Source of the DNA: Niabella drilacis
GTDB taxonomy: Bacteria > Bacteroidota > Bacteroidia > Chitinophagales > Chitinophagaceae
NCBI RefSeq assembly: GCF_900101395.1
Contig: NZ_FMZO01000003.1
Location: 186,001 to 250,000 of the forward strand
Reading direction: 5' to 3'
DNA: 64,000 bases
Shown: positions 5,280 to 45,852 of the stretch, one piece after another
How the letters are laid out: every line of letters starts with the position of its first letter
Position numbering within the stretch: the first letter of the stretch is position 1
Notes under the pieces: generated by a model
The model's database searches: none
What the model saw: the letters and a program-made list of their open reading frames with translations, nothing else
Told to the model about the DNA's origin: nothing
Made by a program: the position numbers and the translations under genes

Positions 5280-5289
5280 ATCTAGCCGG

Positions 5290-5297: not shown

Positions 5298-5341
5298 ACT
5301 GAAGAATGCGTGCCGGTTGCGGTTCCGGTGTTATGCGGCGT

Positions 5342-6544
5342 TCACCTTTTCTGTTTTAGGGGGATTTTCAGCAGTAAAAAAGTGAGCAGCCAGAAAAGAA
5401 TAGCTGCAACAATGGCCAGTGTAATGCTTCCGTACAGGTATTGTTCCAGGTTCTGACCCATATATTTTAAAGTGAGCTGTTTGCTGAATGAGATATCCAC
5501 TGCGCGGCTGCCCATCCAGGGTTTCCCCATTTTATAACTAAGGAAAATGATCAGGGGGATCATGGGGGGGATGCTGATATTGGCTGCCAGGATAAAAAGG
5601 GCCTTGTTCAGCCGCATCCAGTGCGCCGCGGGAATACCCACCAGCAGCTGGAATCCCCAGATGGGTACAATGCCCATAAAGGCTCCAAAAGCCATGGAAT
5701 TAGCCTTGGTAACCGTGGTTTCACCAGGATTCAGCAGGAGCCGCTTCAGCTCCTGCTGCCAGTTTTTTTTTGTAAACCGCCGGAAAAAATTGCGGGGCTT
5801 TATATATAAGAAGGTGATCAGTACCAATACCGTATTCAGTACGCTGATGCGGCTGAAATCTTTAAAAGGCCGGAAATGCGTGATGCGCTCTTCTTTTGGA
5901 GGATAATAAACGGTAATGGGAACGGAGGTTACCGGTACACCAGTCCAGGCCAGGCGCACGATCACCTCAATTTCCAGTTCGTATTTCCGGGTAAACAGCT
6001 GCATCCTGCTGATGGGCTCAAGGGGGTAAAGCCGGTAGCCTGTCTGGGTATCCGGGCAGTCGATCCCGGTTTCTACCCTGAACCAGAAATTGGAGAATTT
6101 ATGCCCGAAGCTGCTTTTGCCAGGCACATTGTCTGCAGTGGCCATGTTCCGGCTGCCCATGATCAATGCGGGTCCCCCGGTTTCCAGTGCATCGAGGAAG
6201 AGCGGCAGGTCTTTTGCAAAATGCTGCCCGTCCGAGTCGATGGTGATGGCATACCGGTAGCCCAGCTCCATGGCTTTTTTAAATCCGGTGCGCAGGGCCA
6301 TACCCTTTCCCTTATTGGGAGAATAGGCTGCCACCGTTACCTGCGGAAATTTTTCCAGGATCGCCGGTGTGGCATCTGTAGAGCCATCATTGATAACGAT
6401 CACCTGCCCGGTATAACGAAGCACATCAGTGATCACCTGTTCAATGCTGGCGGCATTATTATAAGTAGGGATCAGCACACATACACCCAGTATGGAAAAG
6501 CGCTCTGAAATATCAGCAGGTATAATTGAATGATCCAATTTCAC
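5342..6544 (-). CDS. Family 2 glycosyltransferase with C-terminal DUF2062 domain
   Basis: The 400-residue protein has an N-terminal GT-A fold typical of DPM1-like family 2 glycosyltransferases: LIPTYNNAASIEQV near residue 25, VINDGSTDATP near 50 and the metal-binding DSDGQH near 103. The C-terminal 130 residues are hydrophobic with several membrane segments and match DUF2062 (GAFMGIVPIWGFQ), so the enzyme is membrane bound. It precedes the MMPL/acyltransferase/methyltransferase fusion by 62 bp, and this pair recurs in flexirubin-type lipid clusters. A role in adding or transferring a sugar during lipid tailoring is inference. A TACTTTTG -7-like box sits 8 bp upstream of the start (6552-6559). 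Confidence 0.85.
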   Translation of the reverse strand: MKLDHSIIPADISERFSILGVCVLIPTYNNAASIEQVITDVLRYTGQVIVINDGSTDATPAILEKFPQVTVAAYSPNKGKGMALRTGFKKAMELGYRYAITIDSDGQHFAKDLPLFLDALETGGPALIMGSRNMATADNVPGKSSFGHKFSNFWFRVETGIDCPDTQTGYRLYPLEPISRMQLFTRKYELEIEVIVRLAWTGVPVTSVPITVYYPPKEERITHFRPFKDFSRISVLNTVLVLITFLYIKPRNFFRRFTKKNWQQELKRLLLNPGETTVTKANSMAFGAFMGIVPIWGFQLLVGIPAAHWMRLNKALFILAANISIPPMIPLIIFLSYKMGKPWMGSRAVDISFSKQLTLKYMGQNLEQYLYGSITLAIVAAILFWLLTFLLLKIPLKQKR

Positions 6545-6565
6545 GAAGGGGCAAAAGTAAAACTT

Positions 6566-7045
6566 CTATTGTATTTCGGTAGCTAATAAATTTTGGTAAT
6601 TGTATTTTTTATACGCGCTGATCATGTTTTTTTCCCGGGTTATTTCAAACAGTTCATTCTTTATCTCTATCCGCAGCCAGTATTCCGGCTCCGTATGTGA
6701 AAAAGAACTCAGCTTGAGCAGCACATCTGTATTTAGCCGGCGTTCTCCTGTCAGATATTTATGCAAGTTACTGTCCTGCATTTCAAACAGGTTCGCCAGC
6801 TTTTTTTGCGTGATTTCGAACACTGCCAGGTACATTTTTACAAAATCGAGGATCTTTATGTTTTTATCTGTACTTCTATCTTCAATATAATCCTCAATCT
6901 GGTATTGTATAGCTAGCAGTTCATTTTTCAGCCTTCTCTCTTTGCTTTGCCTTTCTGAATGTGAAAGAATAAAGTCCTTCAGCGCATTTGTTTTTTCCTT
7001 GTTCCAGACATGAGTCATTTCAATTTCGTTTCTTTCCTTGCTCAT
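6566..7045 (-). CDS. HTH (XRE/HigA-like) antitoxin-type regulator
   Basis: 159 residues. The centre has a helix-turn-helix of the HigA/XRE kind (ITQKKLANLFEMQDSNLHKY, then LTGERRLN), followed by LLKLSSFSHTEPEYWL, the usual 'promote expression by binding DNA' tail. The N-terminal 60 residues are charged and helical. The gene overlaps the 3' end of the upstream GNAT-like gene by 26 bp if ATG 7045 is used; an alternative ATG at 7018 is preceded by AAGGAAAG and would give a non-overlapping start. Overlap, order and the operator-like palindrome upstream of the pair (7586-7610) point to a toxin-antitoxin operon in which this is the antitoxin and repressor. That role is inferred. Confidence 0.7.
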   Translation of the reverse strand: MSKERNEIEMTHVWNKEKTNALKDFILSHSERQSKERRLKNELLAIQYQIEDYIEDRSTDKNIKILDFVKMYLAVFEITQKKLANLFEMQDSNLHKYLTGERRLNTDVLLKLSSFSHTEPEYWLRIEIKNELFEITREKNMISAYKKYNYQNLLATEIQ

Positions 7046-7577
7046 GATTTATATTTTTTAAGTATTTGTTTATGAGATGTTCCCCTGCCTCGGGAGAAAT
7101 TAACATGGTAGTATCACCAAACTTTACAGCTCCATATTTTTTGCAGTACACAGCCATAAGCTTTATTTCATCCTCTTTGTTCTCCTCGAATACATCAAAA
7201 GCCAGCCAGCCTTTATAAGCTCCGGCACCATGTATAAAACTAAGGCGACAGGCAAAAGCAATGAGGCATCCCGCTACCTGTTCGTAACGCTTATGGCGTC
7301 CTTTATTATGCGGCGCTATTTCTACGTAGGCCATGTAAGGCTCAATGGTATCTTTCATTTTAAAGCTAAGGCACCCTTCAATAATATCGGGCGTTTCCTC
7401 GCAGATCAGTACAAAAGTTTGTAATTTTTCCTTAAGTGTATTTTTTTTAAAATTAAACCGCCAGCCTTCATTTAATGAGGTCAAAGCGAGATGCGATGGC
7501 GATTCGATACGTGCATTTACCCATCTTTTATCTTCAATCCTGATAATGGAAACCCGCATAAGGTTTAATTGCCTCAA
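7020..7577 (-). CDS. GNAT-like protein, putative toxin of a toxin-antitoxin pair
   Basis: The 185-residue product has features of a GNAT acetyltransferase fold: paired strands near 80-90 (GCLSFKM, EPYMAYVEIAPHNKG), where the chain turns into the helix 'GRHKRYEQVAGCLIAFAC' in the position of the acetyl-CoA pyrophosphate loop, and a C-terminal beta strand (AVKFGDTTMLISPE). The classical Q/RxxGxG/A loop is degenerate (NKGRHKRYEQVAG). It is the first gene of a two-gene operon with an HTH protein, and a perfect inverted repeat lies 9 bp upstream. GNAT toxins paired with ribbon-helix-helix antitoxins are known; pairing with an XRE-type partner is less usual. Acetylation target unknown. An in-frame ATG at residue 7 is an alternative start. 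Confidence 0.55.
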   Translation of the reverse strand: MRQLNLMRVSIIRIEDKRWVNARIESPSHLALTSLNEGWRFNFKKNTLKEKLQTFVLICEETPDIIEGCLSFKMKDTIEPYMAYVEIAPHNKGRHKRYEQVAGCLIAFACRLSFIHGAGAYKGWLAFDVFEENKEDEIKLMAVYCKKYGAVKFGDTTMLISPEAGEHLINKYLKNINHEQGKKRN

Positions 7578-7585
7578 AGATACAA

Positions 7586-7610
7586 AAAATTATACAAATT
7601 GTATAATTTT
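7586..7610. promoter_or_regulatory. Operator-like inverted repeat before the GNAT/HTH operon
   Basis: Arms AAAATTATACAA (7586-7597) and its exact reverse complement (7599-7610) flank a single A. It lies 9 bp upstream of the first gene and overlaps the only AT-rich promoter-like sequence there, so an HTH protein bound here would block transcription. This is what an autoregulated toxin-antitoxin operator looks like; binding is inferred. Confidence 0.6.
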
Positions 7611-7687
7611 AAAAGATAAAATCAGGCGGCCGTACTGCCGGAGGGAGACGAACAGTCATAAATGGGAGCCGGTGCCAGGGACCGTGC

Positions 7688-8305
7688 TTACCGGCGGGGT
7701 CCAAAAGTGTACCGTACTGCCAGGGCGATATTCAGCAGCTCTACTTCACCATCAAATTGACGGTTGACGTTTAAAAACGCCGGCCGGTGGTCGAGGGTAA
7801 TGTTGACCGGGGCCTTCGGAGATTTGAAATCGAAACCGCCTACCGGCCCCAATCCCAGGGAAGCCTGCGTTTTGGCATTTTCAAACGTTTTTGTATAAGG
7901 ATCATTAGGTGGCGGAGCCGTACCCGGGTAATTGGGAAGATCATCTTTCAGGAACCGGACATGCCCCTCCGCTCCGATGATGAAACTGAGCCCTCCTTTC
8001 ATGGGAATGTGCAGCTGGTAGGAGAGGGCGCCGAAAAATGGCTGGTAAACCTGCACCCCCTCAAAGTTTTCCTGCTCATTTCTTAAGACATATTCTTCAT
8101 AGGAAATACCCGCGTTTAGTTCAATAGCCGAACGGGGCGAAAAAAACAGTTTGTAAGATCCCGAAAGAAAGTCATAGGCTTTTGTTCCCAGCACATTGGC
8201 CCTTACGCCTAAAGCCTGCCGGTAAGGGACCGTTCTTTTCGTGGTTTGAGCAATGGTCATGTTAGCAACGGCCAATAAGATAAAGAGGCATATTTGTTTT
8301 TGCAT
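7688..8305 (-). CDS. Outer membrane beta-barrel-type protein, paralogue 1
   Basis: 205 residues with a Sec signal peptide (MQKQICLFILLAVANMTIAQ) and alternating short strands rich in aromatic residues ending in RYTFGPRR, the type of C-terminal strand seen in small Bacteroidota outer membrane proteins. It shares its architecture with the two proteins at 9926-10447 and 10624-11139: an 'A-G-R' start after the signal, SYKFYxSxxxAIELxAGxxY, a GxxFxxGxxxY/F centre and an N-L-S-DxRP-L tail. No enzymatic motif was seen. Function unknown; a porin- or adhesin-like surface role is inference. The gene follows the small lipoprotein gene by 11 bp. Confidence 0.6.
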   Translation of the reverse strand: MQKQICLFILLAVANMTIAQTTKRTVPYRQALGVRANVLGTKAYDFLSGSYKLFFSPRSAIELNAGISYEEYVLRNEQENFEGVQVYQPFFGALSYQLHIPMKGGLSFIIGAEGHVRFLKDDLPNYPGTAPPPNDPYTKTFENAKTQASLGLGPVGGFDFKSPKAPVNITLDHRPAFLNVNRQFDGEVELLNIALAVRYTFGPRR

Positions 8306-8316
8306 AGCAGGTGTAT

Positions 8317-8799
8317 TTATTGCAGGGGACCCCTTTTAAAATCGGATGTAAACGTTTCCCTGTCCGCCTCCGGGTTGTTGGATGCCGGCGATGTGGATTG
8401 TGAAATGGTCAGCTGCTGGCTGGTAAGCGTTAGCACATTTGCTTCGGAATGTTCCCCGTTTTCTATATCCTCCATGATAAGGGCTCCTGTGTCCGGCAGG
8501 TACCGGCAGGTACCCTTTGCCTGTTCGGTGATCACCCACCTGCCATCTTCCCGGTTGCGCTCATAGGTTTCAAAAGTTCCGTTTTTATAAAACAGGATGG
8601 TGATCTCTTTGTCCTCACTGGCGGCTTCGGTATATTCTTCAATAATTGCTGATCCTTTATAGGCCTTGTAATGAAAGGAGGTCTGTGTCCACAGACCGAT
8701 TATTTGATCCGGCAGATGGGTCTCCTGTCTGTCCTTATAACAGCTGGGCAGGGTAGTGGCAAGTACTGTAAGGGTCAACAGGTAAGTGATTTTTTTCAT
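8317..8799 (-). CDS. Small lipoprotein, lipocalin-like
   Basis: 160 residues from MKKITYLL at 8799, with a lipobox (TLPSC, Cys at about residue 21) and then YKDRQET. The rest has the pattern of a Bacteroidota lipocalin-like/DUF4923-type domain: IIGLWTQTSF at the start, repeated short strands (ITILFYKNGTFETYE, GRWVITE, GTCRYLPDTGALIM) and a polar tail. The longer frame to 8925 starts inside the direct-repeat region and has no signal peptide at its start, so the internal ATG is chosen. Its tail ends 12 bp from the downstream barrel gene, so both are likely one transcript. The direct repeats at 8903-8968 lie about 100 bp upstream. Ligand unknown. Confidence 0.65.
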   Translation of the reverse strand: MKKITYLLTLTVLATTLPSCYKDRQETHLPDQIIGLWTQTSFHYKAYKGSAIIEEYTEAASEDKEITILFYKNGTFETYERNREDGRWVITEQAKGTCRYLPDTGALIMEDIENGEHSEANVLTLTSQQLTISQSTSPASNNPEADRETFTSDFKRGPLQ

Positions 8800-9925: not shown

Positions 9926-10447
9926 TTAGAAATTGTATCGTGCTGCGATCCCAAAAGTATGCGCATGCAGGGTGCCAAAGCCGGAAGGCGCGGCAATATG
10001 CAGTACCGGCCGGAAATCTGCAGATAGATTTAAGGGAATGTTGCTGAACTGGTAATCCGCCCCCCCGGTTGCAAAGAGCCCGGCACCAAAGCCATCGTAG
10101 TAGCGCTGTTTGGAAAAGGAGTTGAATACGAGCAATCCTCCGCCGAGGAACCATTTGAGCCCTTCAACGCTGCTGATCTTAAAATGATGCTGGTAGGCAC
10201 CGGAAAGACTGACCCCTGTTGTGTTCCAGTATTTACCATCATAGATGGAATAACGGTTCCTTTGTCCAAATCCCGCATCGAGTTCAATAGCACCCGGTTC
10301 AGAGATATAAAATTTGTAGGAGACCGCCAGCGTGGCATAGTCTACATGGGAGCTGATCCTCAGGCCGATAGCTTTGCCGCTTTTGTCCTGGGCATGGAGC
10401 GAAGTTATAACTGTAAATACTGCAATACAGAGAAAGAGTTGTTTCAT
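9926..10447 (-). CDS. Outer membrane beta-barrel-type protein, paralogue 2
   Basis: 173 residues from MKQLFLCIAVFTVITSLHAQ at 10447 (signal peptide, cleavage after HAQ). After the signal it runs KAIGLRISSHVDYATLAVSYKF, with alternating strands, a central Gly-rich hairpin (FLGGGLLVFNSFSK) and the end FGIAARYNF typical of an outer membrane barrel. It is a clear paralogue of the gene at 10624-11139 (same length, same end FGIAARYNF/VGIAARYTF) and more distantly of 7688-8305. Convergent with the LytTR gene, whose stop lies 6 bp away. The frame upstream of 10447 adds 13 residues before the signal peptide, so 10447 is chosen. Function unknown. Confidence 0.6.
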   Translation of the reverse strand: MKQLFLCIAVFTVITSLHAQDKSGKAIGLRISSHVDYATLAVSYKFYISEPGAIELDAGFGQRNRYSIYDGKYWNTTGVSLSGAYQHHFKISSVEGLKWFLGGGLLVFNSFSKQRYYDGFGAGLFATGGADYQFSNIPLNLSADFRPVLHIAAPSGFGTLHAHTFGIAARYNF

Positions 10448-10623: not shown

Positions 10624-11139
10624 TTAGAACGTATAACGGGCTGCGATTCCCACATCATGCCCGTGGAATGTATTGTAGGCATCCGGAGCCGTAATGTGAA
10701 GGGTAGGGCGGAAGTCAGCCGAAAGATTCAGGGGGATCTTTGCAAACTTGTAATCGACCCCTCCTGTTGGATAAATGCCTACACCAAAGCCGTCATAGCG
10801 GTCCAGCTTGGAGCTGGTATTAAAAAATACCATACCGCCTCCGATGAACCATTTCAACCCCGGAACCGGCCTGATAGGGAAATGGTGCTGGTAAGTGCCT
10901 GAAAAACTAACACTGGGGGCATTCTTTCGCTCGTTATAATACCAGTAACGCTGATCGCCGAAGCCCAGGTTCAGTTCGATGGCCCCGGGTCTGGAAACAA
11001 AGAATTTATAAGAAGCGGCAAAGGCTTCATATTCAGTATGGGTACTCACGCGGGCACCAATAGCCTGCCGGTAACCGGATTGTGCGTGTGTAACGGTTAC
11101 GGCAGCAATGACCGCGGCCAGAATGCATATTTTTTTCAT
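10624..11139 (-). CDS. Outer membrane beta-barrel-type protein, paralogue 3
   Basis: 171 residues from MKKICILAAVIAAVTVTHAQ at 11139. It has the same layout as the neighbour at 9926-10447: RQAIGARVSTHTEYEAFAAS, KFFVSRPGAIELNLGFGDQ, a Gly-rich hairpin (WFIGGGMVFFNTSSK) and the end VGIAARYTF. Tandem orientation and about 180 bp spacing suggest gene duplication. An extra 13 upstream codons (to 11178) lack signal features and were left out. No catalytic or binding motif is visible. Confidence 0.6.
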   Translation of the reverse strand: MKKICILAAVIAAVTVTHAQSGYRQAIGARVSTHTEYEAFAASYKFFVSRPGAIELNLGFGDQRYWYYNERKNAPSVSFSGTYQHHFPIRPVPGLKWFIGGGMVFFNTSSKLDRYDGFGVGIYPTGGVDYKFAKIPLNLSADFRPTLHITAPDAYNTFHGHDVGIAARYTF

Positions 11140-11221: not shown

Positions 11222-14149
11222 TCAGAGGTTGGGAATCAGTTCCCTGTATAAAGTGTCCAGTATATCCCTGCGGATGCTTAACCGGCTGAGACCCGGACTG
11301 TTGCGTGTGGGGTATACCCGGTTGGAGAGAAATATGTACACCATATTGTATTTGGGATCTACCCATACACAGGTGCCGGTAAATCCTGTATGACCATAGG
11401 TTTGCGGGGATGCGTATTTTGCGGGGTAAGGGTCGCTGCTGGTGGCATTATCTTTTTCGGGCTTGTCAAACCCATAACCTCTGCGGCTGATGGAACTGTG
11501 ATAGCCAATAAAGTACTGGATGGTTTCCCATTTGAGAAAGCGCCGTCCGTTTAGTTCGCCGCCGTTCAGCAGCATCTGATAGAGTTTTCCCAGGTCGTAG
11601 GCATCAGAAAACAACCCCGCATGTCCGGCCACACCACCGCCCAGTGCAGCGCCTTCATCATGTACCGTGCCCTGTATAAGCTGGTTGCGAAAACCGGTTT
11701 CCTTTTCGGTGGGCATAATGCGGTCCAGCGGAAAACGCTCCAGCGGGTGGTAGCCGGTGGTGGTCATGTGCAACGGCTCGTAGAACGTTTTTTGCACATA
11801 TACTTCCAGGGGCATTTTTGTAATGGCTTCTACTATTTTACCCAGGAACCAGAAATCATTATCGCTGTATACATATTTTTTGCCGGGCGGTACTACCGGG
11901 CTTTCCAGGATCGTTTTCCAGATGGTGTCCCTGTAGTCGTTCCGGATATATAGGTCCCGGGCTACCTGGGTGGTAAAGCCTTCCGTTGATGAGCTCCGGT
12001 ACAGCTCCGGCCGCACGGTTCCATCGGGGTTTAGCGTTGCTTTATAAAAGGGGATAAAAGGGACCATTCCTGCCTGGTGCAGGATGATATCTTCCAGCGT
12101 AAGCTTTGCTTTATCGGTCTTTTTCGTCCAGGGAAGGTAATCGGCCAGTTTTTTTTTGAGATCGATCTTTCCTTCTTCATACAGCTTCATAACAGAGACG
12201 GTGGTGGCCGAAATTTTTGTAACGGAGGCCAGGTCAAAAATACTGTTAAGGGCCGTGGGGTGTGTGGGATCGTACTCGTAGTTCCCAAAGGCTTTGTGGT
12301 AAACGATCTGCCCGTCTTTGGCGGCTAAAACCACGCAGCCTGGATAGGCCTTTTTTTTAATGCCTTCCTCTGCGATGGAATCGATGGCTGCAAACCGTGC
12401 ATCCCCGATGGGCTGCATATAGCTTACCTCGGTGCCTTTCTGGATAATGCCGGTCCCATATTTCCAGGTGCAAACAGTAACGGGTAAGGTGCCTGCCGCA
12501 TTGAATCTGGAGGCCAGCCAGTCTGCCGCCACATCCTGGAAAACGGCATCGTCTTCATAGGCCGCCACCAGGGATTTAGCCATGCAAAAATTTCCTAACG
12601 AAAGGGGATTTCCGAAAACAAGGGTTACCGCATTGTTCTGGTTCAGGCGCTGCCAGTTCTGAAGGGCATTTTGCGAAATGCCGTAGTTGCTGCCGCCTTT
12701 GCGCAGTGCCACATCATGAAAGCCGAGGATCACCGCATCATATTTGCCCTCTAACACTTTTTTAACAACAGTACCTCCCTTTCCTACTGCATCCTTGTAC
12801 CGGATATAATACACATCGGCATTAAAATCCTGCTTCAGCCGTTGCGCAAGCACCGTAGAGCCATCATTGTTAAATCCTATATAAGCGACCCGCTTACCGG
12901 TAAGCGGCCGTCCGAAGAACTCGTTCCTGAAACCATCGGGGTTAACCAGCTGTACTACAGTGAGGGCCTGGCGTGCTATTTTTTCACGTACCTCGTTGGT
13001 TGCAGCATTGAGGTCCTCTGTAAGGTTGCCGGTGCTTATGGGCGACAACTTGTTAAGACCCAATCGATATTTTGCCAGCAACACTTTTTTTACTTTCATT
13101 TCAATATCGTTCCAGCTCAGCCGTTTCTTTTTGATAGCCTCATTAACAGCCTTAATGGTACCGGGAACACTTTCGGGAAGGCAAAGCATATCATTGCCGG
13201 CTATCAGGGCTTCCACGGCAATAGTGCCCCCGGGAAAATATTTGGCAACGCCCTGCATTTCCAGTGCATCAGTAAAAGTAAGTCCTTTAAAACCGAGCTG
13301 ATTCCGCAATAGACCGGTAACCGCGTTCTTTGAGATGGAGGTGGCCCGGTGCGGAGTATTATCAATAGAGGGAACAAACAGGTGTCCGACCATCACACTT
13401 TGCACCCCGGCTTTGATGAGTTCTTTAAAAGGATATAGTTCCAGTTCCTGCAGCTGGTCTACGGTCTTATTGATCACCGGGAGGTCCAGGTGCGAGTCTA
13501 CTGCTACATCCCCGTGCCCCGGAAAATGTTTGGCGCTGGCCATGATGCCGGCATCCTGCATGCCCCGCATATAGGCCACACCCATACGGGCTACCTTATA
13601 CTTGTCTTCCCCGAAAGAGCGGAACCCGATCACGGGGTTATTGGGATTGTTGTTGATGTCAACCACCGGCGCATAGTTCACATGTACTCCCAAACGCTTA
13701 TGCTGCCGGCCAACGGCCAGTCCCATTTCATAAGCCAGCGCTGTATCGTTTACGGCACCTACGGTCATTTGATAGGGAAATTTGATCACACTGTCTAAAC
13801 GCATGCCCAGCCCGTATTCACCGTCAATGGTGATCATAACGGGGGTTTTGGCCAGCTGCTGGTAATAGTTGGTAAGGTTTGCCTGCCGGATGGGACCACC
13901 CTGGAAAAAACAAAGTGCTCCAACATTGTAGTTTTTAACATCATTGGCTACCGCAGCCACATGATCGGCTCCCTTATTGGAATGGGCTCTTACAATGATC
14001 AGCTGGGCAATGCGCTGGTCTTTGCTGAGGCTTTTATAAACGCTGTCTACCCATTTGTCTGCAGGAAGATTGCTGTTGTATTGGGCGTTGATAGATTGGC
14101 ATGTGAAAAGGATCAGGATCCATAATGCATACAATCTTTTATTTTTCAT
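11222..14149 (-). CDS. Fused NagZ-type GH3 glycosidase and beta-lactamase-family serine hydrolase
   Basis: A 975-residue secreted or periplasmic protein (signal to about residue 23). Residues about 35-370 are glycoside hydrolase family 3: KHFPGHGDVAVDSH near 210 is the NagZ-type catalytic loop and the nucleophile region TDALEMQGV lies near 293. Residues about 370-590 form the GH3 C-terminal domain. Residues about 600-975 are a class C beta-lactamase/penicillin-binding-like domain with SVTK (SxxK) near 640, YSDN (YxN) near 763 and HTG near 920. NagZ cuts GlcNAc-anhydroMurNAc from peptidoglycan turnover fragments; pairing with a DD-peptidase-like domain suggests combined muropeptide recycling or wall trimming. 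This fusion is known in Bacteroidota; the combined substrate is inferred. Confidence 0.88.
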   Translation of the reverse strand: MKNKRLYALWILILFTCQSINAQYNSNLPADKWVDSVYKSLSKDQRIAQLIIVRAHSNKGADHVAAVANDVKNYNVGALCFFQGGPIRQANLTNYYQQLAKTPVMITIDGEYGLGMRLDSVIKFPYQMTVGAVNDTALAYEMGLAVGRQHKRLGVHVNYAPVVDINNNPNNPVIGFRSFGEDKYKVARMGVAYMRGMQDAGIMASAKHFPGHGDVAVDSHLDLPVINKTVDQLQELELYPFKELIKAGVQSVMVGHLFVPSIDNTPHRATSISKNAVTGLLRNQLGFKGLTFTDALEMQGVAKYFPGGTIAVEALIAGNDMLCLPESVPGTIKAVNEAIKKKRLSWNDIEMKVKKVLLAKYRLGLNKLSPISTGNLTEDLNAATNEVREKIARQALTVVQLVNPDGFRNEFFGRPLTGKRVAYIGFNNDGSTVLAQRLKQDFNADVYYIRYKDAVGKGGTVVKKVLEGKYDAVILGFHDVALRKGGSNYGISQNALQNWQRLNQNNAVTLVFGNPLSLGNFCMAKSLVAAYEDDAVFQDVAADWLASRFNAAGTLPVTVCTWKYGTGIIQKGTEVSYMQPIGDARFAAIDSIAEEGIKKKAYPGCVVLAAKDGQIVYHKAFGNYEYDPTHPTALNSIFDLASVTKISATTVSVMKLYEEGKIDLKKKLADYLPWTKKTDKAKLTLEDIILHQAGMVPFIPFYKATLNPDGTVRPELYRSSSTEGFTTQVARDLYIRNDYRDTIWKTILESPVVPPGKKYVYSDNDFWFLGKIVEAITKMPLEVYVQKTFYEPLHMTTTGYHPLERFPLDRIMPTEKETGFRNQLIQGTVHDEGAALGGGVAGHAGLFSDAYDLGKLYQMLLNGGELNGRRFLKWETIQYFIGYHSSISRRGYGFDKPEKDNATSSDPYPAKYASPQTYGHTGFTGTCVWVDPKYNMVYIFLSNRVYPTRNSPGLSRLSIRRDILDTLYRELIPNL

Positions 14150-14271
14150 GCGTTGCTATTTTTCAGTTACAGATGGTTGCAAATTTAGGATAATTGGGCA
14201 TGCAAAGGGGGAAATTTGAAGCTGGGACTGTATTTGCGGGTTTTTGCGGGGCGCCTGTCCGTAAGAATTGC

Positions 14272-30284: not shown

Positions 30285-30316
30285 AAAAAAAGTCAACTTT
30301 AAAGTTGACTTTTTTT
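30285..30316. terminator. Perfect 32-bp palindromic terminator of serS sharing the operator core
   Basis: AAAAAAAGTCAACTTT is directly followed by its reverse complement, ending in seven T on either strand. It is 26 bp past the serS stop on the minus strand and reads as a terminator in both directions. Its GTCAA-N8-TTGAC core is identical in layout to the two operators next to it and spaced 32 bp from site 2, so it could be a third regulator site. Confidence 0.65.
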
Positions 30317-38183: not shown

Positions 38184-38933
38184 CTATTTTCTGAGCAGGG
38201 TCTGCCGGATCTGCTCTTTCTTTTGCCGGGAGATGGGGAGCTGCACATCGTTTTCCAGCAGCAGGCTGCCCCCGTCCTCTTTGAGGATACTTTTGATAAA
38301 ATAACGGTTCACCAGGTAGGAGTTATGGCAGCGGATAAAGCCATAGTCTTCCAGCAGCTCATCGTACTCATAAAGTGGTTTGGCAATGACGAGCTTTTCC
38401 CCCGCTGTTAAATAAAAGATCGTGTAATTGTTTTTGGCTTCGCAATAAATAATATCTGCAGGGCTTACAAAGCGGATCTCCTTTGCAGAGGGCAGCGCTA
38501 TTTTATGATCTTTCCGGCTGCTTTTCTGTTGCAGCAGCAGCAACAGGTTTTCCAGCTGGCTGTTCCTGTGTCTGGCGGCTGTTTTTGAAACGGCTTTATC
38601 AACGGCGGCTTTGAGCTCTGCCACAACAATGGGTTTCAGCAGGTAGTCGATGGCCGAAAATTTCACGGCCTGGATGCCGTATTTGTCAAAGCCGGTTACA
38701 AAAATCACCTCAAATCCCGGGGATGGCAGGGATTGCAATAACTCAAACCCGTTTTTGCCGGGCATCTGAATATCCAGGAATACCAGGTCCGGCTGATGCT
38801 GTAAAATAGCCTCCCGGCCTTCATCGGCATTCATAGCCGTGGCAATGATCTGTACGTTGCTGCAATGCTCCTGTAACAGCAGTTCCAGGTTGCGGATATT
38901 GTTGGGCTCGTCGTCAATGATAATGGTTTTCAT
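38184..38933 (-). CDS. LytTR-family response regulator
   Basis: 249 residues: receiver with MKTIIIDDEPNNIRNLELLL, Asp54 phospho-acceptor (LVFLDIQMPGKNGF), Lys near 103, then a LytTR DNA-binding domain (IIYCEAKNNYTIFYLTAGEK, YGFIRCHNSYLVNRYFIKSI, LPISRQKKEQIRQTLLRK). It is the only intact regulator for two LytS-type kinases (38953-40602 and 42023-43597). A second copy of its first 14 codons survives at 41963-42003. Lies 19 bp after the adjacent kinase. Targets unknown. Confidence 0.93.
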   Translation of the reverse strand: MKTIIIDDEPNNIRNLELLLQEHCSNVQIIATAMNADEGREAILQHQPDLVFLDIQMPGKNGFELLQSLPSPGFEVIFVTGFDKYGIQAVKFSAIDYLLKPIVVAELKAAVDKAVSKTAARHRNSQLENLLLLLQQKSSRKDHKIALPSAKEIRFVSPADIIYCEAKNNYTIFYLTAGEKLVIAKPLYEYDELLEDYGFIRCHNSYLVNRYFIKSILKEDGGSLLLENDVQLPISRQKKEQIRQTLLRK

Positions 38934-39567
38934 AAACTGAAATTAAAAGGTATCAGGCCCAGTTCCTGAATTTGAGGCAGACTTTTGTTTCGTTTTTTTG
39001 ATCGGTGGCAAAAGAAAGTTCAACCTGGTAACCGTTTCGCCGGAGCAGGCCGATCCGTTCTTTAACCAGCTTTGTTCCCAGCCCGGTATACAGCTGTGCG
39101 GGTGCAAACCCCGGGCCATTGTCGATGATTGCTATTAGCAGATCGCTTTCCTGTTGCTGTACCCGTATTTCAAGCAGTCCTTTTTCGCGCAGGGAAGAAA
39201 GGCCGTGTTTGATGGCGTTTTCCACCAGCGGCTGCATGAGGAGCGTGGGAACGGGGATGGTATCTGGTGCTATTCCCCTGCCGATGGTGCATTGATACCG
39301 GAAGCCAAAGCGCAGCTGCTCCAGGGCGATGTAGCTGTTCAGCACCTGCAGCTCGCGGGAAAGCGGTATCATTTCGTTTTCGTTATTACTGAGCGAACTG
39401 CGCAGCAGCGCACTGAACTCGGTGAGGTAATGATCGGCTTTCTGCTTTTCGTTATTATGCATCAGGTACTGGACAGAGCCCAGCGCATTGAACATAAAAT
39501 GCGGGTTCAGCTGGCTTTGGATGGCCTGCAGCTCCAGCCGGGTCTTTTGGGCTTTTTGCTGGGCGGC
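38893..39567. repeat. 675-bp near-identical repeat, copy 1
   Basis: Matches 41963-42637 base for base except 7 substitutions (about 99% identity) without indels. It runs from codon 14 of the response regulator, through the intergene, to the catalytic half of the kinase. Sequence outside both ends is diverged. See the matching copy for interpretation. Confidence 0.92.
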
Positions 39568-40602
39568 ACGGAGGCGCCTTCTGTTAATAAAGAGAAATCC
39601 GACGCCGGAAACAACAATGCCTGATAATACCCACCAGATCGGGGAATCCCGCATCCGGGGAAGCACTTCAATTTCGTAAGTAAAAACCGGAGCCTCATCC
39701 ACCGGGTACTTTACCTGGAGCAAATGTTTTCCGGGCTTGAGGTCCTCCAATAAAATGGATGGGGTTGATGCTAACGGTGTAAGACTCCAACCGGAGGTAC
39801 TATCTATGCGATAGAACAGGTTATCCATATAATTCCACCGGTAATAATCAAGAAAATGCTTAAATACAAGAACGAGCTGCTGGCCTTTTTTGATCGTAGC
39901 TTTTTGATGATCCAGTCTTAAACTGTCGTATTTGGGGTACCAGTTGAAACTGGGGTCTTCCCGTTTTTTATTGATGACCAGGGTATCGGTGGCAGCTCCT
40001 TCCAGTTGGGGCTGTGGAAATTGGAATAAGAGTTTAAATGTGATTGCATTTTTATTTTCTTTCTTATCCCATATGAACAGTTCTGACCCATAGAGGAAAG
40101 GATTGTATGCATATAATTTGAAAGCAGCTGTTTGGCGGCCTGTTTTGATGATAAGACTGTCGTAATCCCCACCCATAGCGTCGGGGGCGTTCAGTCCCCC
40201 GGTCATTTTGCCATACCAGCCCGGCCCGTAACGGTCGTTCTCCCTGTATGCAAAGAGTACTTCTTTTGAGGGGGTGTTAATGTAAATCTCGTACAGGCTG
40301 TCGTTGATCTTCCTGCAGGTGTTTTCCAGTTCCCGGCCATTGGCAAACTCTTCATATCCCAGGCTTTTGTTGCTTGTTTTTTTATGGAGAAGAAAAAGAT
40401 TGATGTCTTTAAATTTTATGGAGTCTTTTAACAGCCTGTCCAGGTCCTTTGCGTCCGCAATTTTATTTTTGTATTTTTTTAAACCGTTGGAATTGGATGA
40501 TAAAAACCCGGCCTTTGTTTCTACCGCTCCCCTGAACTCCTGTGCGTAGGATGGGCTGTAAAGAAGCAGGCAGTATAGCAAAAGAATCAGGGATAAACGC
40601 AT
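38953..40602 (-). CDS. LytS-like sensor histidine kinase 1
   Basis: 549 residues from MRLSLILLLYCLLLYSPSYAQ at 40602. Secreted N-terminal sensory region of about 320 residues, one membrane helix (IWWVLSGIVVSGVGFLFI), then a His_kinase/HATPase module: the histidine is in LNPHFMFNALGSVQYLMHNN, followed by VPTLLMQPLVENAIKHGLSS and DNGPGFAPAQLYTGLG. The C-terminal 211 residues are almost identical to kinase 2 (42023-43597), with two substitutions (Ile/Thr in the 'AI-DNGP' motif and Gly/Glu in GR-IAPD). Sensor half is homologous but only partly alike. Next to the LytTR regulator. Confidence 0.92.
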   Translation of the reverse strand: MRLSLILLLYCLLLYSPSYAQEFRGAVETKAGFLSSNSNGLKKYKNKIADAKDLDRLLKDSIKFKDINLFLLHKKTSNKSLGYEEFANGRELENTCRKINDSLYEIYINTPSKEVLFAYRENDRYGPGWYGKMTGGLNAPDAMGGDYDSLIIKTGRQTAAFKLYAYNPFLYGSELFIWDKKENKNAITFKLLFQFPQPQLEGAATDTLVINKKREDPSFNWYPKYDSLRLDHQKATIKKGQQLVLVFKHFLDYYRWNYMDNLFYRIDSTSGWSLTPLASTPSILLEDLKPGKHLLQVKYPVDEAPVFTYEIEVLPRMRDSPIWWVLSGIVVSGVGFLFINRRRLRAAQQKAQKTRLELQAIQSQLNPHFMFNALGSVQYLMHNNEKQKADHYLTEFSALLRSSLSNNENEMIPLSRELQVLNSYIALEQLRFGFRYQCTIGRGIAPDTIPVPTLLMQPLVENAIKHGLSSLREKGLLEIRVQQQESDLLIAIIDNGPGFAPAQLYTGLGTKLVKERIGLLRRNGYQVELSFATDQKNETKVCLKFRNWA

Positions 40603-40661
40603 CATGCTGCTGGTATTGTTGTTGACCCAAAAATATTCGATTAACAATAGAAAGTTGCTTC

Positions 40662-41756
40662 TTATTTTATTAATCCGGATAGCTTTTTTTCCAGTGCCGC
40701 TTTATGGTTAGCGTTGTAACCATCAAATATCTCAATGATAATGCCGTTTCTGTCAATTAAAAAAGATTTGGGGATGGCCCTTATTTTGTATTTAGCCGCC
40801 TCTTCGCTATAAAAGCCTTTTAAATCGGAAATGTTCGTCCAGCTGATACGGTCTTTTTGAGCCGCTTCTTTCCAGTATTCAAAGTCCGTATCAATCGAAA
40901 AGCTAACGATCTCGAAGCCCTTGTCCTTATACCGGTTATATAAATCTGCAAGTTGTTGATTATTGCCCCTACAGGGCCCGCACCAGGCTGCCCAAAAATC
41001 GAGCAGGATTATCTTGTTTTTTAGATCGGATAACCGGGTCTCCTTACCACTTAGCGTTTTACCTTTTATGTCAGCGAATGCCGCTCCCACTTTTAATTGA
41101 TCTGTTGCTAAATACTGTGTAATTATTTTGCCGTATTTGGTTTGCTGAAGGCCGGGAGGAAATTTGTTAAATAGTAGCTGAAGGCTATCTTTTGTCAGAT
41201 CATTCCTGAGGAAGAATAATTCTTTAATGGTAATTAGGGAGGGCGTCAATGTTGCAATGGTATGCAGACGTATGGCTAAAATTTCCTTATCTATTTCCTT
41301 TATGCTTGTTTCAAATGCCGTTGATTTTGAATTATCCTGCAGAAGCTGATCCATTAGCTTGTCTCTTACATTATACAGACCAGATGTTTTGCTGTTCACC
41401 GCCATGAAAATGTCATTCAGCGGTGATCTTTCAAATTGCAAATCACTGAATCGGTCTTTACTTCCCCTGAAGTCGATAACCTGGTTGCTTACCCATAGAG
41501 TGGTGTAAATAAAATCCTTGCTCTCTTTCGGATCGAGGTAGAGTCGGAATGTAGCAGGCTCCGAAACGCGCCCGTTGAATTTTAAAGTTCCGTTCTTTAA
41601 AAAAGCAGAATCTTTTTGGGTGCTTAAATCGAGGTTTAATAAATAAAACTTTGAACCTTCCGGAAAGCCGGTGAGGGTTGCTTTAATGGTGAACCCCTTT
41701 TGCGCAAAAAGGCTGTTTGCTGTAAATACGATAAGTAGGAAAAATGCTTTTGCCAT
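40662..41756 (-). CDS. TlpA-type thioredoxin-like lipid/secreted protein 1
   Basis: 364 residues with a Sec signal (MAKAFFLLIVFTANSLFAQ), a DUF4369-like N-terminal domain (GFTIKATLTGFPEGSKFYLL), and a C-terminal AhpC/TSA-thioredoxin domain (FADIKGKTLSGKETRLSDL, ILLDFWAAWCGPCRGNNQQL with WCGPC, AKYKIRAIPKSFLIDRNG). Probably a periplasmic thiol-disulfide protein of the TlpA group. It sits between kinase 1 and the remnants of the duplication junction and is the first-unit counterpart of the TlpA protein at 43594-44865, but the N-terminal halves differ. Confidence 0.86.
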   Translation of the reverse strand: MAKAFFLLIVFTANSLFAQKGFTIKATLTGFPEGSKFYLLNLDLSTQKDSAFLKNGTLKFNGRVSEPATFRLYLDPKESKDFIYTTLWVSNQVIDFRGSKDRFSDLQFERSPLNDIFMAVNSKTSGLYNVRDKLMDQLLQDNSKSTAFETSIKEIDKEILAIRLHTIATLTPSLITIKELFFLRNDLTKDSLQLLFNKFPPGLQQTKYGKIITQYLATDQLKVGAAFADIKGKTLSGKETRLSDLKNKIILLDFWAAWCGPCRGNNQQLADLYNRYKDKGFEIVSFSIDTDFEYWKEAAQKDRISWTNISDLKGFYSEEAAKYKIRAIPKSFLIDRNGIIIEIFDGYNANHKAALEKKLSGLIK

Positions 41757-41870
41757 TGCGGTCCTGTTTTTTTACAAAACTGGCCAGTTTGAAAGATGTG
41801 TTTCCTGCTAAATGTGTATTTGGTAGGGTAAACTGTGTCAATGTTCCACTTGGGGAGTTGCTATTCTCCC
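41757..41870. other. Short gap before the acyltransferase remnant
   Basis: About 114 bp between TlpA 1 and the decayed acyltransferase end. I recognise no gene or strong promoter; the TlpA 1 promoter probably lies here. Confidence 0.3.
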
Positions 41871-41962
41871 ATTGCGGCTCCTTCTTTCCATTCATGCATT
41901 AATCTGCGGTGGCCCCGATGCATCCGGGCTTACGAATGGATGATTTCCTGGAATGTAACAAA
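41871..41962 (-). pseudogene. Decayed 3' end of a LpxL-type acyltransferase (duplication remnant)
   Basis: On the minus strand the last codons read HEWKEGAAMGE then stop, against HEWKEGDVMGE in the intact gene at 44974-45852, and upstream pieces align with RFVAFLEATIRK and SHRR. Small deletions break the frame. It abuts the 5' fragment of the response regulator at 41962/41963, exactly as expected if a block was tandemly duplicated from the acyltransferase 3' end to the regulator 5' end. Confidence 0.85.
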
Positions 41963-42003
41963 CGGATATTGTTGGGCTCGTCGTCAATGATAATGGTTTT
42001 CAT
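41963..42003 (-). pseudogene. 5' fragment of the LytTR response regulator (14 codons)
   Basis: Reads MKTIIIDDEPNNIR from ATG at 42003, identical to the start of the regulator at 38184-38933, and then switches to decayed acyltransferase sequence. The chimeric frame ends at 41899 (34 codons). It marks the tandem-duplication junction and is part of the 675-bp near-identical block. Confidence 0.88.
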
Positions 42004-42637
42004 AAACTGAAATTAAAGGGTATCAGGCCCAGTTCCTGAATTTGAGGCAGACTTTTGTTTCGTTTTTTTGATCGGTGGCAAAAGAAAGTTCAACCTGGTA
42101 ACCGTTTCGCCGGAGCAGGCCGATCCGTTCTTTAACCAGCTTTGTTCCCAGCCCGGTATACAGCTGTGCGGGTGCAAACCCCGGGCCATTGTCGGTGATT
42201 GCTATTAGCAGATCACTTTCCTGTTGCTGTACCCGTATTTCAAGCAGCCCTTTTTCGCGCAGGGAAGAAAGGCCGTGTTTGATGGCGTTTTCCACCAGCG
42301 GCTGCATGAGGAGCGTGGGAACGGGGATGGTATCTGGTGCTATTTCCCTGCCGATGGTGCATTGATACCGGAAGCCAAAGCGTAGCTGCTCCAGGGCGAT
42401 GTAGCTGTTCAGCACCTGCAGCTCGCGGGAAAGCGGTATCATTTCGTTTTCGTTATTACTGAGCGAACTGCGCAGCAGCGCACTGAACTCGGTGAGGTAA
42501 TGATCGGCTTTCTGCTTTTCGTTATTATGCATCAGGTATTGGACAGAGCCCAGCGCATTGAACATAAAATGCGGGTTCAGCTGGCTTTGGATGGCCTGCA
42601 GCTCCAGCCGGGTCTTTTGGGCTTTTTGCTGGGCGGC
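41963..42637. repeat. 675-bp near-identical repeat, copy 2
   Basis: Copy 2 of the block at 38893-39567: same length, 7 substitutions by direct comparison (at copy-1 positions 38948, 39125, 39145, 39178 and three more near 39275-39530). Period of the duplication is 3070 bp. The left limit is the duplication junction; the right limit lies inside the kinase at the start of the catalytic half, where the copies become dissimilar. Gene conversion between tandem paralogues explains this better than a very recent duplication, because flanking sequence has diverged. Confidence 0.88.
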
Positions 42638-43597
42638 TTTTATCCGTATCCTGTAAATGGTGTAAAAGAGAAGTGCAGACAGTACTACACTGCCCAAAGC
42701 CCACCATAAGATGGAGTGCTTTACAGGGGGCAGGATCTCTAGTTCAAATTTCAGGAGTTTCGCTTTTTCGGCTGAGTACTTTACGTACAGCAGATACTTC
42801 CCCGGCTGCAGATCTTCAAGGAGTAGGGAGGGCGTGTAGGACAGGGCGGTGCTGCTCCAGTCGCTGTTATTTATTTTATATTCCAGTTGATCCAGCTTCT
42901 CTGACCGGGCGTTCCTTAAAAAATGTTCAAATAAGATCAGCACATGGCTTTTGTCCGTTGTAAAGAAGGGGGAAATCGAAACTTTATCTGCTGGTACGGA
43001 TGGGCTGAAATTGTGCCCTGCATTTTTTTTCTTTTTTGCGATCAAAGCCGTGTCAGTAGTAATTAAGATCGGAATTGGCTCAGGAAAGGTATAGCTAAAA
43101 CGGAATTGAGCCAGCCTCTTTTTACTCCGGTTGTCAAATAGACTGTAACTGGTAAAATAGGGGTCAAAGGATAAGGAACGATCGGCGAAGGAATTTGCCT
43201 GGTCATAAGGCCGCCAGCTGATCGTTGCCGGATTGGGGTCCTGGTTGTTAGACACTTCAAAGCTGTAGCCGGCTTCAAAGGAGTTAACCAGAATGATTTT
43301 TTTTGATATATCATTTACATCGATTTGATAGGTGGTGGCATTGAGCTTTTTGATGCCGTTTCTTAATGATGTGTCTGTAAAGCCGTCATAGTATTGCTCC
43401 CGTGCCTGCAAGGGCTTTTGTATAAGAAATATATTGAAAAGCGTGGGAAACGGGGAACCCTCCACGGCTTTTATCATTTTTGTTGAATCAAAGAAGGGTA
43501 TGGGTCCAAGATCAACCACTGGCAGTGCCTTTTGCGCCTGGCAGAGAAGTCCGGATGACAGGAATATAAAGCATACGATGAGGCTACAGGGTTTCAT
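42023..43597 (-). CDS. LytS-like sensor histidine kinase 2
   Basis: 524 residues from MKPCSLIVCFIFLSSGLLCQ at 43597 (signal peptide). Sensor half of about 300 residues is homologous to, but clearly diverged from, kinase 1 (shared: SLLLEDLQPGKYLLYVKY against SILLEDLKPGKHLLQVKY). One membrane helix (ILWWALGSVVLSALLFYTIY), then the catalytic half identical to kinase 1 but for two residues. Downstream, the partner regulator is only a 14-codon fragment, so it must signal to the regulator at 38184-38933 or nowhere. Start overlaps the TlpA 2 stop by 4 bp (ATGA). Confidence 0.92.
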   Translation of the reverse strand: MKPCSLIVCFIFLSSGLLCQAQKALPVVDLGPIPFFDSTKMIKAVEGSPFPTLFNIFLIQKPLQAREQYYDGFTDTSLRNGIKKLNATTYQIDVNDISKKIILVNSFEAGYSFEVSNNQDPNPATISWRPYDQANSFADRSLSFDPYFTSYSLFDNRSKKRLAQFRFSYTFPEPIPILITTDTALIAKKKKNAGHNFSPSVPADKVSISPFFTTDKSHVLILFEHFLRNARSEKLDQLEYKINNSDWSSTALSYTPSLLLEDLQPGKYLLYVKYSAEKAKLLKFELEILPPVKHSILWWALGSVVLSALLFYTIYRIRIKAAQQKAQKTRLELQAIQSQLNPHFMFNALGSVQYLMHNNEKQKADHYLTEFSALLRSSLSNNENEMIPLSRELQVLNSYIALEQLRFGFRYQCTIGREIAPDTIPVPTLLMQPLVENAIKHGLSSLREKGLLEIRVQQQESDLLIAITDNGPGFAPAQLYTGLGTKLVKERIGLLRRNGYQVELSFATDQKNETKVCLKFRNWA

Positions 43598-44865
43598 TTA
43601 AGCAGGTCATTTTCTTTGAAAAAAGCACTAAGACTGTCTATTGAAATGTCTTTGGCTATGATAATATTATTTTTGCCGATCAGCACATTGGCAGGCAGGG
43701 CCTGGATGTTGTATTTTTTCTCTATCCCGCTATCGGGTACTATATTAGGATAGCTGAGTTGAAACCGGTTGATGGTTGCTTCCAGATCCTTTTCCGGGCT
43801 ATCGACCCCAACACCTATGAATTGAATTTTTGATGTGTCGGCTAATTGATAGCAGGCTTGAATGGCGGGCAGCTGTGCAAGGCATGGTTTGCACCAGGTG
43901 GCCCAAAAGTCGATAAAAAGATACTTTCCGCGCATGTCGGCTATGTTCATCAAATGATTGTTCACAACCTTGTTCCCTCTGAACGATGGTGCCTGGTAGC
44001 CGATTTGATCGGAATATATAGGATCATTTTCTGGTATTTTTTTTAACCGGATATGCTGTGTCAGGATATCTACTCCCAGGAACTGGTATGGTTGGCTTTT
44101 TATCACTAGGAATTGGCCCTGTTGCAGGATCTGGTCTAACGGGGTTTTATCGGTTGCCGAACGGTTTGCTCCAAAGACCAGGTCGCTGTTCACGTAGGAC
44201 AGGCTCATGAAATACCGGGGGCTTATGTAAAAATGATAGCCGTTCCAGACAGCGCTGCCGAATTGTGAGAAATTGAACATGATGGTTCCTGCAGCATTCA
44301 TCGACACCAGAACACGGGCTTTTTCCGTAATAGTGTTTTTGCCATTGTATCTTTCGAATGTTATGGGAATGGTTGCGCGTTCCATCATCCGCGTGTCTTT
44401 AAGACTACCCGGGCCTGCCGGTGTGAAGGTGGTGTCATCGCTGAAATCATCATTATGGTTTTGGTCAATGACGACTTCTGTTCTGCCTGTTTTTTTATTG
44501 ATGCCGGCGGCGATATTTAAAAAACAGTTTATACCCTTTTCTGTAAGCCTTTCTTTGGCTGCCTTTTCTGCCCAGTTGTATGACTGTGTACCAGGCTGCG
44601 CTTCTTTGGTCCCGGCCGTAAATAGGTTTTGATACTGATATTGATGTGGGATAATTGTAATAACCTTCAATTGAACGCTGTCGAGGTTTGAAGGAACTCC
44701 TTTTAAAGGCGGCTTGTTACCGGGGCTTTTATCTGCACTTATGGTGCTGATCGTTCTGTAAAAGGGCCCGTAGCCGTCTTGCAGGGTAAAAGGAATCCGT
44801 ATTTCCTGTGCGGGACCTTTGTACCCCAGGAGCAGCACAGTGCATGAAAAGATGAATTTTTTCAT
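43594..44865 (-). CDS. TlpA-type thioredoxin-like secreted protein 2
   Basis: 423 residues from MKKFIFSCTVLLLGYKGPAQ at 44865 (signal peptide). N-terminal 270 residues do not match a family I know (EKARVLVSMNAAGTIMFNFS, RYFMSLSYVNSDLVFGANRS), and the C-terminal AhpC/TSA/thioredoxin domain holds KYLFIDFWATWCKPCLAQLP (WCKPC, a CxxC) and IQALPANVLIGKNNIIIAKD. It is the second-unit counterpart of TlpA 1 and lies in the operon between acyltransferase and kinase 2. Redox role in the periplasm is inferred. Confidence 0.85.
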   Translation of the reverse strand: MKKFIFSCTVLLLGYKGPAQEIRIPFTLQDGYGPFYRTISTISADKSPGNKPPLKGVPSNLDSVQLKVITIIPHQYQYQNLFTAGTKEAQPGTQSYNWAEKAAKERLTEKGINCFLNIAAGINKKTGRTEVVIDQNHNDDFSDDTTFTPAGPGSLKDTRMMERATIPITFERYNGKNTITEKARVLVSMNAAGTIMFNFSQFGSAVWNGYHFYISPRYFMSLSYVNSDLVFGANRSATDKTPLDQILQQGQFLVIKSQPYQFLGVDILTQHIRLKKIPENDPIYSDQIGYQAPSFRGNKVVNNHLMNIADMRGKYLFIDFWATWCKPCLAQLPAIQACYQLADTSKIQFIGVGVDSPEKDLEATINRFQLSYPNIVPDSGIEKKYNIQALPANVLIGKNNIIIAKDISIDSLSAFFKENDLLK

Positions 44866-44973
44866 TGGGCGAAGGTTTGGGTAATTGTCTTTTGAAATAA
44901 CAAAAGTACCCGGCAGGGGCAAACCGGAACGCTGATACTGTGTATTTGACAACCCTCTATGTGTAAACGGGCA

Positions 44974-45852
44974 TCATTCCCCCATCACATCCCCCTCTTT
45001 CCACTCATGCTTCCACCTGCGGTGGCTCCAGAGCCACATATCCGGGTTTTTGCGGATGGTGGCTTCCAGGAAGGCAACAAAGCGCTGCGTAAGCTGTGCT
45101 TCGGTACTGTTGTTCTTTGGATTTTCCTCAGCAAGCGTGAATGTTACATGATAATACCCTCTTTTTTTTCGCTCAATAGCAGCAAAAAGCACCACGGCAT
45201 TGTTGGTGACGGCGCTTTTGGCCGGACCAATCGTAAAAGCTGTTTTCCGGTTAAAGAAAGTGAACCATTTTGCTTTGTGCAGGCGGCCGGGGCTCTGGTC
45301 GGCCACCAGCCCCAGGCAATACATGCTGTGACGATAAGGAATGAATTCCCGGGTAAGATTGCCGGCACTTAACAGGACCGCCCCGCTGCGGGAGCGCAGT
45401 TTTTTAAAGACCCGGTTCAGGGGTTTACTGCTGATGGGCATGTATACACCCAAAAAAGTATGTTTGATCTTTCGTACCACCTGCACATTGCCCCACTCCC
45501 AGTTGAAGGTATGCCCGAGGTGAAGCTGTACGCTGCGGCCTTCATCATAATAGCGGTTGATCATCTCCCAGTTGCCGGTGAAGCGTTTTTCAAAAAAGAG
45601 ATCCGGGGCAGAAAGCAGCTTAACGGTTTCTACAAACGAATCGATGAATTTATGATAAAAATCCTTGGCAATGCGTTCCCGTTCTTCCATTGTTTTCTCC
45701 GGAAAGGCGATGGCCAGGTTGTTCATCACTACTTTTTTGCGGTAACCGATGAGGTAGTACACTACTGCATAGAAAAAATCAGACAGCAGGTATAGCACCG
45801 GCAGTGGAAGCAGGGAGCATAAATATAAAAAACCGTAAACAATATAATACAC
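44974..45852 (-). CDS. LpxL/HtrB-type lysophospholipid/lipid A acyltransferase
   Basis: 292 residues with an N-terminal membrane helix (VYGFLYLCSLLPLPVLYLL), then HLGHTFNWEWGNVQ (HX4E-type acyltransferase site), LVADQSPGRLHKAKWFTFFN, and RKNPDMWLWSHRRWKHEW at the end. Matches the lipid A late acyltransferase superfamily. Head of the operon acyltransferase-TlpA 2-kinase 2. A decayed copy of its last 90 bp lies at 41871-41962. Cytoplasmic membrane. Confidence 0.88.
   Translation of the reverse strand: MYYIVYGFLYLCSLLPLPVLYLLSDFFYAVVYYLIGYRKKVVMNNLAIAFPEKTMEERERIAKDFYHKFIDSFVETVKLLSAPDLFFEKRFTGNWEMINRYYDEGRSVQLHLGHTFNWEWGNVQVVRKIKHTFLGVYMPISSKPLNRVFKKLRSRSGAVLLSAGNLTREFIPYRHSMYCLGLVADQSPGRLHKAKWFTFFNRKTAFTIGPAKSAVTNNAVVLFAAIERKKRGYYHVTFTLAEENPKNNSTEAQLTQRFVAFLEATIRKNPDMWLWSHRRWKHEWKEGDVMGE

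Follow-up and report, generated by a model that had tools for sequence, protein, structure and literature searches.

The genome of Niabella drilacis contains a two-component gene array in which two intact histidine kinases (K1 and K2) have different sensors and the same transmitter, together with one intact LytTR response regulator. We interpret this locus as a mosaic, with a probability of about 0.6: it would have been formed by insertion of a cassette and homogenisation of the transmitters, and not by duplication of an operon. The window we have studied is a stretch of 64,000 nucleotides (contig NZ_FMZO01000003.1, positions 186,001–250,000), part of a 6.1-Mb draft genome in 45 contigs; all positions given below are those of the window. 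An original prediction, made from the sequence alone, had proposed the tandem duplication of a whole operon. The gene order which it gave for the minus strand is confirmed by open reading frames and Pfam domains: acyltransferase, TlpA2, K2, a regulator fragment joined to an acyltransferase remnant, TlpA1, K1 and regulator. In the order of transcription the features are:

44974–45852, minus strand: intact gene of lipid A acyltransferase type, upstream neighbour of the array (PF03279, E 5.9e-37), present at the site in 15 of the 15 congeners fetched
43594–44952, minus strand: TlpA2, thioredoxin-fold protein with a WCKPC motif (PF00578, E 6.6e-15), 69% identical to its counterpart in the congener G002; start likely at ATG 44865, behind a signal peptide (judged by eye)
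42023–43597, minus strand: whole K2 kinase gene
42638–43597, minus strand: K2 sensor part, codons 1–320 (71% identity to G002, 29% to the congener G003)
42023–42637, minus strand: K2 transmitter, His_kinase and HATPase_c (PF06580, PF02518; 57% identity to G002, 81% to G003)
41963–42637, minus strand: copy 2 of the repeat, with transmitter, spacer and 41 regulator bases (668 of 675 identical to copy 1)
41861–42003, minus strand: regulator fragment and acyltransferase remnant
41899–42003, minus strand: chimeric reading frame of 34 codons, from the regulator start into the acyltransferase remnant and then a stop; probably a relic
41861–41962, minus strand: acyltransferase remnant, a decayed 3' end of the gene (nhmmer E 1.2e-12 with a profile of 8 congeners, own gene excluded; 77/98 to the own gene)
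40662–41756, minus strand: TlpA1, DUF4369 and thioredoxin fold with a WCGPC motif (PF00578, E 3.4e-20; PF14289, E 5.9e-12), 31–32% identity in the loci L080 and L077
38953–40647, minus strand: whole K1 kinase gene; start likely at ATG 40605 (judged by eye)
39568–40647, minus strand: K1 sensor part (41–42% identity to the sensors of L080 and L077)
38953–39567, minus strand: K1 transmitter (PF06580, PF02518)
38893–39567, minus strand: copy 1 of the repeat, with transmitter, spacer and 41 regulator bases (blastn self-comparison)
38184–38933, minus strand: intact LytTR response regulator, the only intact one in the array (PF00072, E 2.9e-21; PF04397, E 3.7e-19)

When the whole window is compared with itself (blastn, E <= 0.01), two direct matches in all are found between the units. 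The first is a direct repeat of 675 bp (38893–39567 and 41963–42637) with 98.96% identity and sharp ends on both sides. It contains the kinase transmitter, the spacer and 41 regulator bases, which are 13 codons and two bases; the fusion was predicted to hold the first 14 codons of the regulator, and its start is indeed there, but codon 14 differs silently and still codes for Arg. Six of the differences between the copies are coding, four of them silent and two changing a residue; at silent sites the copies diverge by 2.8% (4 of 145). The second match is the acyltransferase remnant, which abuts the regulator start at 41963/41962, exactly at the junction that had been predicted. The TlpA and sensor genes do not match: the sensors of K1 and K2 are 29% identical over 280 residues, TlpA1 and TlpA2 25% over 121. 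The segment runs from an acyltransferase 3' end to a regulator 5' end, as the duplication model stated, but it does not copy its neighbour: the two units have only the transmitter and the first 41 regulator bases in common.

The boundary between unlike and identical parts of K2 lies at codon 320/321, directly past a hydrophobic helix (residues 296–319, in a low-confidence model; the AlphaFold2 model of the K2 sensor has a mean pLDDT of 47). In Pfam both kinases match PF06580 and PF02518 and no other family at E <= 0.001; at E <= 1 the K1 sensor has no match and the K2 sensor only DUF3311, below the cut-off. The TlpA and sensor modules have a GC content of 0.40–0.45, compared with 0.53 in the transmitter, 0.49 in the regulator, 0.49 in the acyltransferase and 0.52 in NadB.

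In the genus, 16 of 17 genomes gave a match, N. drilacis included (G011 gave none), and the acyltransferase region was fetched from 15 of the 16 other congeners. Transmitter and regulator genes are found at this site in only two of them, G002 and G003. The other 13 have no transmitter or regulator detected by tblastn (E <= 1e-4) within the stretch fetched; in G009 and G012 a convergent cupin gene lies within about 70 bp of the acyltransferase, so that the site is empty. At none of the 15 sites is the chimeric fragment seen without a second kinase. G002 has TlpA2, K2 and regulator in single copy at the same site. G003 has a third type, a transglutaminase-like protein (PF01841, E 2e-6) with another sensor; its transmitter is 81% and its regulator 79% identical to those of the window. 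Two members of the family, L080 and L077, have TlpA1, K1 and regulator once each. As each TlpA-sensor unit has its own single-copy relatives, the two units represent separate old lineages, in their TlpA genes as well as in their sensor domains. The single-copy operons which the duplication model led one to look for do exist, but separately for each unit, which counts against it. At this one site, in three congeners, a single transmitter lineage is combined with three types of sensor, near the same codon; the transmitter of G002 itself differs from that of the window. At the seven differences of the repeat, G003 agrees with copy 1 in four, with copy 2 in one and with neither in two, and gives no direction of conversion.

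Sensors and transmitters have conflicting histories. In the sensor tree K2 groups with G002 (support 100/100) and K1 with L080 and L077 (99/98); a clade of K1 and K2 is rejected with p 5e-10 and one of K2 and G003 with p 1e-16. In the transmitter tree K1 and K2 are together (99/98) and are then joined by G003 (95/98), while K2 with G002 is rejected (p 9e-5). The affinity of K2 shifts from G002-like to G003-like at nucleotide 965, and the repeat starts at nucleotide 961 (p 0.0005, the lowest value that 2000 shuffles can give). Compared with its congeners, K2 is a chimera whose affinity changes where the repeat begins. A fast evolution of sensors alone cannot explain this result, since with respect to G002 the sensor of K2 is closer than its transmitter (71% against 57%); with respect to G003 the order is reversed (29% and 81%). 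The regulator is also mixed: among its informative sites, the first 20 agree with G003 at 18, and the last 38 agree with G002 in 79% of cases (p 0.001). A model in which the whole operon was simply duplicated in tandem, with a fast divergence of the TlpA and sensor genes afterwards, would account for the junction of acyltransferase end and regulator start. It would have to leave sensors at 29% and TlpA proteins at 25% beside a 99% repeat, and it is contradicted by the sensor tree and by the single-copy relatives of each unit; we find it hardly credible.

The acyltransferase remnant tells more about the junction. It is detected by an nhmmer profile of eight congeners which leaves out the own gene, with the E-value listed above, and with E = 1.3e-8 by a profile of all 15; judged by these matches it is a true end of this acyltransferase and not of an unrelated one. 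When it is aligned with the intact gene, 77 of 98 bases are identical, with 3–5 indels depending on the alignment. The repeat has 7 differences in 675 bases, the remnant 21 in 98 (Fisher p 1e-14; if the silent divergence of the repeat is taken as the rate, the Poisson p is still 1e-12). The remnant is so much more diverged that the 1% of the repeat does not date the junction; neither can the remnant have been copied from the acyltransferase of the window when the repeat arose. As the units are separate lineages and the remnant is too diverged, the claim that the sequence alone tells the order of events does not hold. In its last 107 bases the acyltransferase of the window is 82–86% identical to those of the eight nearer congeners, so that either a somewhat decayed acyltransferase end of foreign origin or a junction of old date would fit better than a copy which arose at the same time as the repeat. 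The acyltransferases of the congeners do not match the remnant better than the own gene does, and no source for it was found among them.

These observations bear on two other explanations. In one of them an operon of TlpA1 type was tandemly duplicated, from the acyltransferase end to the regulator start, and the upstream front was later replaced by the acyltransferase, TlpA2 and K2 sensor of a G002-like allele. Junction and repeat would then come from a single step, and both the G002-like character of TlpA2 and the K2 sensor and the switch of K2 at the start of the repeat would be explained. The remnant should however be about as young as the repeat, which disagrees with its differences and indels, unless the own acyltransferase end had also been replaced; we consider this course of events rather unlikely. 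In the other explanation the cassette was inserted in one step without any gene conversion, the 1% divergence of the repeat gives the age of the insertion, and the donor already had a decayed acyltransferase end. Structures of this kind are made by homology-facilitated illegitimate recombination, as described in PMC5361080, and no microhomology is visible at the junction when the own acyltransferase stands in for the donor. Such a donor with a decayed end is nevertheless a special requirement, and the conversion found in other arrays, described below, would be left as a coincidence. This alternative appears clearly improbable to us.

An artefact of assembly, by which separate sequences were joined at the 675-bp repeat, must also be considered, as the genome is a draft in 45 contigs and it is general knowledge that short-read assemblers can be misled by 99% repeats. 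The two copies differ however at seven places, and the remnant of the neighbouring acyltransferase gene argues for a local origin. The flanks have no second long match in the genome, so that an excised circle is the only other layout. We believe that an artefact is very improbable.

In the mosaic which we propose, an allelic cassette with an acyltransferase 3' end, TlpA1 and the K1 sensor would have come from a related bacterium and entered between codon 14 of the regulator and the transmitter. It would have been joined illegitimately at the acyltransferase end and by homology on the side of the transmitter. The insertion would leave a doubled transmitter, and gene conversion would have kept the copies alike since then. 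Both kinases are predicted to phosphorylate one regulator, with two inputs and one output: two periplasmic conditions, each perhaps tied to its TlpA-like partner, would set one response. Identical dimerisation domains may even permit mixed dimers of K1 and K2. Promoter and terminator scans of 41600–42100 found none, and a crude Bacteroidota promoter motif has minus-strand matches only at 57924 and 62176; neither result is proof of absence.

Several points weigh against this proposal. In the transmitter tree 4 of 9 inner branches are open, and two of the outside branches are very long. Transmitter DNA is 99% identical between K1 and K2 and 61% between K2 and G002, and it may be G002 rather than the window which has exchanged its transmitter. 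That two inputs lead to one output is a prediction from the gene content. Not all tandem kinase pairs are homogenised: L160 and L146, described below, are not. Finally, no donor genome was found among the sampled genomes of the family. A protein search with the K1 sensor matched 3 of 294 family genomes (E <= 1e-8), and a profile of five sensors matched 15 of 394 genomes (E <= 1e-6), mostly at the sensor end only; both sets were drawn from a larger one. The matches listed for the profile do not include G003, whose own sensor is part of it; presumably that genome was not drawn. In these searches only L077, L080 and G248 are similar to most of the K1 sensor. They were considered as donors of the cassette with TlpA1, but none is near enough. 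In G248 the kinase relative (L056 5237–6952) has one TGA between sensor and transmitter.

We have also examined 86 loci for similar arrays. In eight of them such kinases occur in pairs on one strand, within 4.5 kb; the pairs number 17. Some kinases escaped the detection by motifs (L134 3049–5952 and one in L162, for example), so the survey is incomplete; most loci were chosen by their similarity to a kinase of the window, and no frequency of the pattern can be derived from them. The similarity of transmitters far exceeds that of sensors in the window, L138 (Aquimarina, three kinases), L134 (Tenacibaculum, three of its four) and L164. The latter (1950–7400) is found in the genome of N. drilacis itself, in contig C40: a second tandem pair with kinases of 495 and 1050 aa, unlike sensors and one regulator. 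Its transmitters are 82% identical over 606 bp (78% of nucleotides in the survey) and its sensors 25% in amino acids. Transmitters are not alike in L160 (50% of nucleotides, 46–50% in its relatives in G001, G009 and G012) and in L146 (46%). Nor are they alike in L141, or in L138 7287–8636 when compared with the array (57–59%), two cases with regulators between the kinases; L096, which also has an intervening regulator, is intermediate (71%). The pair L168 (transmitters 70% of nucleotides) was set aside, as its first kinase reaches the contig start, and the pair L167 (transmitters 78%, sensors 59% of nucleotides) can be read as ordinary constraint.

In L138 the kinases 7287–8636 and 12935–14182 have sensors 70% and transmitters 47% identical; by these values the locus is an independent chimera, with a sensor placed on the transmitter of another array. 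L141 has an orthologue of the first array kinase in L138, and these two share 91.5% of sensor DNA and 87.3% of transmitter DNA; the paralogous transmitters within L138 are 87–88% identical. The clearest case is genus g2, in which L165 and L166 have each one regulator and three kinases, A, B and C. The sensors pair by orthology, with support 100/100 for each. In transmitter DNA A and B are paired inside G116 (97/97) and share 89% of their nucleotides, compared with 79% and 71% to their orthologues; orthologue clades are rejected with p 0.024 for A and p 0.0037 for B. The transmitter of C stays with its orthologue (100/99), so that homogenisation is partial in this array. A and B of G017 are 93–100% identical over a stretch in which orthologues have 70–88%. 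The pattern of g2 is what gene conversion of transmitters predicts, and in L166 paralogous domains are closer than orthologous ones, as in concerted evolution.

The common view of duplicated kinases is that their transmitters diverge, so as to avoid cross-talk. Here we find the contrary: sensors differ or are swapped and transmitters are kept alike. Tentatively, with somewhat less than even odds, we suggest a general design in Bacteroidota of many ears and one mouth. Arrays of LytS-type kinases would swap their sensors as cassettes together with an accessory periplasmic protein, conversion would keep the transmitters alike, and every sensor would feed a single LytTR regulator, in front of which the kinases may heterodimerise. 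If it is general, it offers natural fusion points of sensor and transmitter for the construction of chimeric kinases, as well as a bacterial system for measuring the gene conversion of a single protein domain. The near-identical repeat and the neat junction looked like a simple duplication; only the relatives showed otherwise.

Some other features were observed. Contig C34 of the same genome has a related kinase-regulator pair (L057 3122–8887) with TlpA-like genes, judged by eye, on both flanks. In Pedobacter (L096 7411–7989) the C-terminal half of a regulator is found on a different N-terminus, beside two kinase-regulator pairs. In the window there are also a direct repeat of 206 bp with 67% identity (10008–10213 and 10706–10911) and a perfect palindrome of 32 nt (30285–30316).

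The array is of a known kind, with domain swapping and gene conversion, in a variant for which we found no report; the evidence for its novelty is weak. The literature on gene conversion or concerted evolution of kinases and on domain shuffling gave no case of homogenised transmitters in tandem kinases, in a search which most subscription papers fall outside. Systems of LytS/YehU type also have a PF06580 kinase adjoining a LytTR response regulator, but the sensors of K1 and K2 match no Pfam family over the cut-off. The LytS-type 5TM sensor domain was not found in either kinase by Pfam. Reg_prop and Y_Y_Y, as in propeller-type (HTCS-like) kinases, were not found by Pfam either; a Y_Y_Y-like end of the sensor is only an impression. 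In ComQXPA of Bacillus subtilis (PMC4408185; the details of ComP are general background) a variable accessory gene and sensor half also precede a constant transmitter and regulator at one site. The array has no genes like ComQ or ComX; its accessory proteins are TlpA-like or, in G003, transglutaminase-like, the variation is between species (one genome per species) and two tandem units share one regulator.

The nearest mechanism in the literature consulted is the homology-facilitated illegitimate recombination of PMC5361080. There, in the immunity-gene arrays of the type VI secretion system (T6SS) of Vibrio cholerae, one end of an incoming cassette is held by homology and the other is joined illegitimately, and a gene remnant and a tandem array are left. 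The array studied here is sensory and not of toxin-immunity type, both complete kinases are kept and it is the shared transmitter which is doubled. Conversion of tuf type (PMC5520373) also keeps paralogues of one genome alike; here a single domain is homogenised and the sensor half is free to differ. The shuffling of domains in histidine kinases, which PMC4603909 describes as rare, likewise places a new sensor on an existing transmitter, whereas here three sensor types are found with one transmitter lineage at one site.

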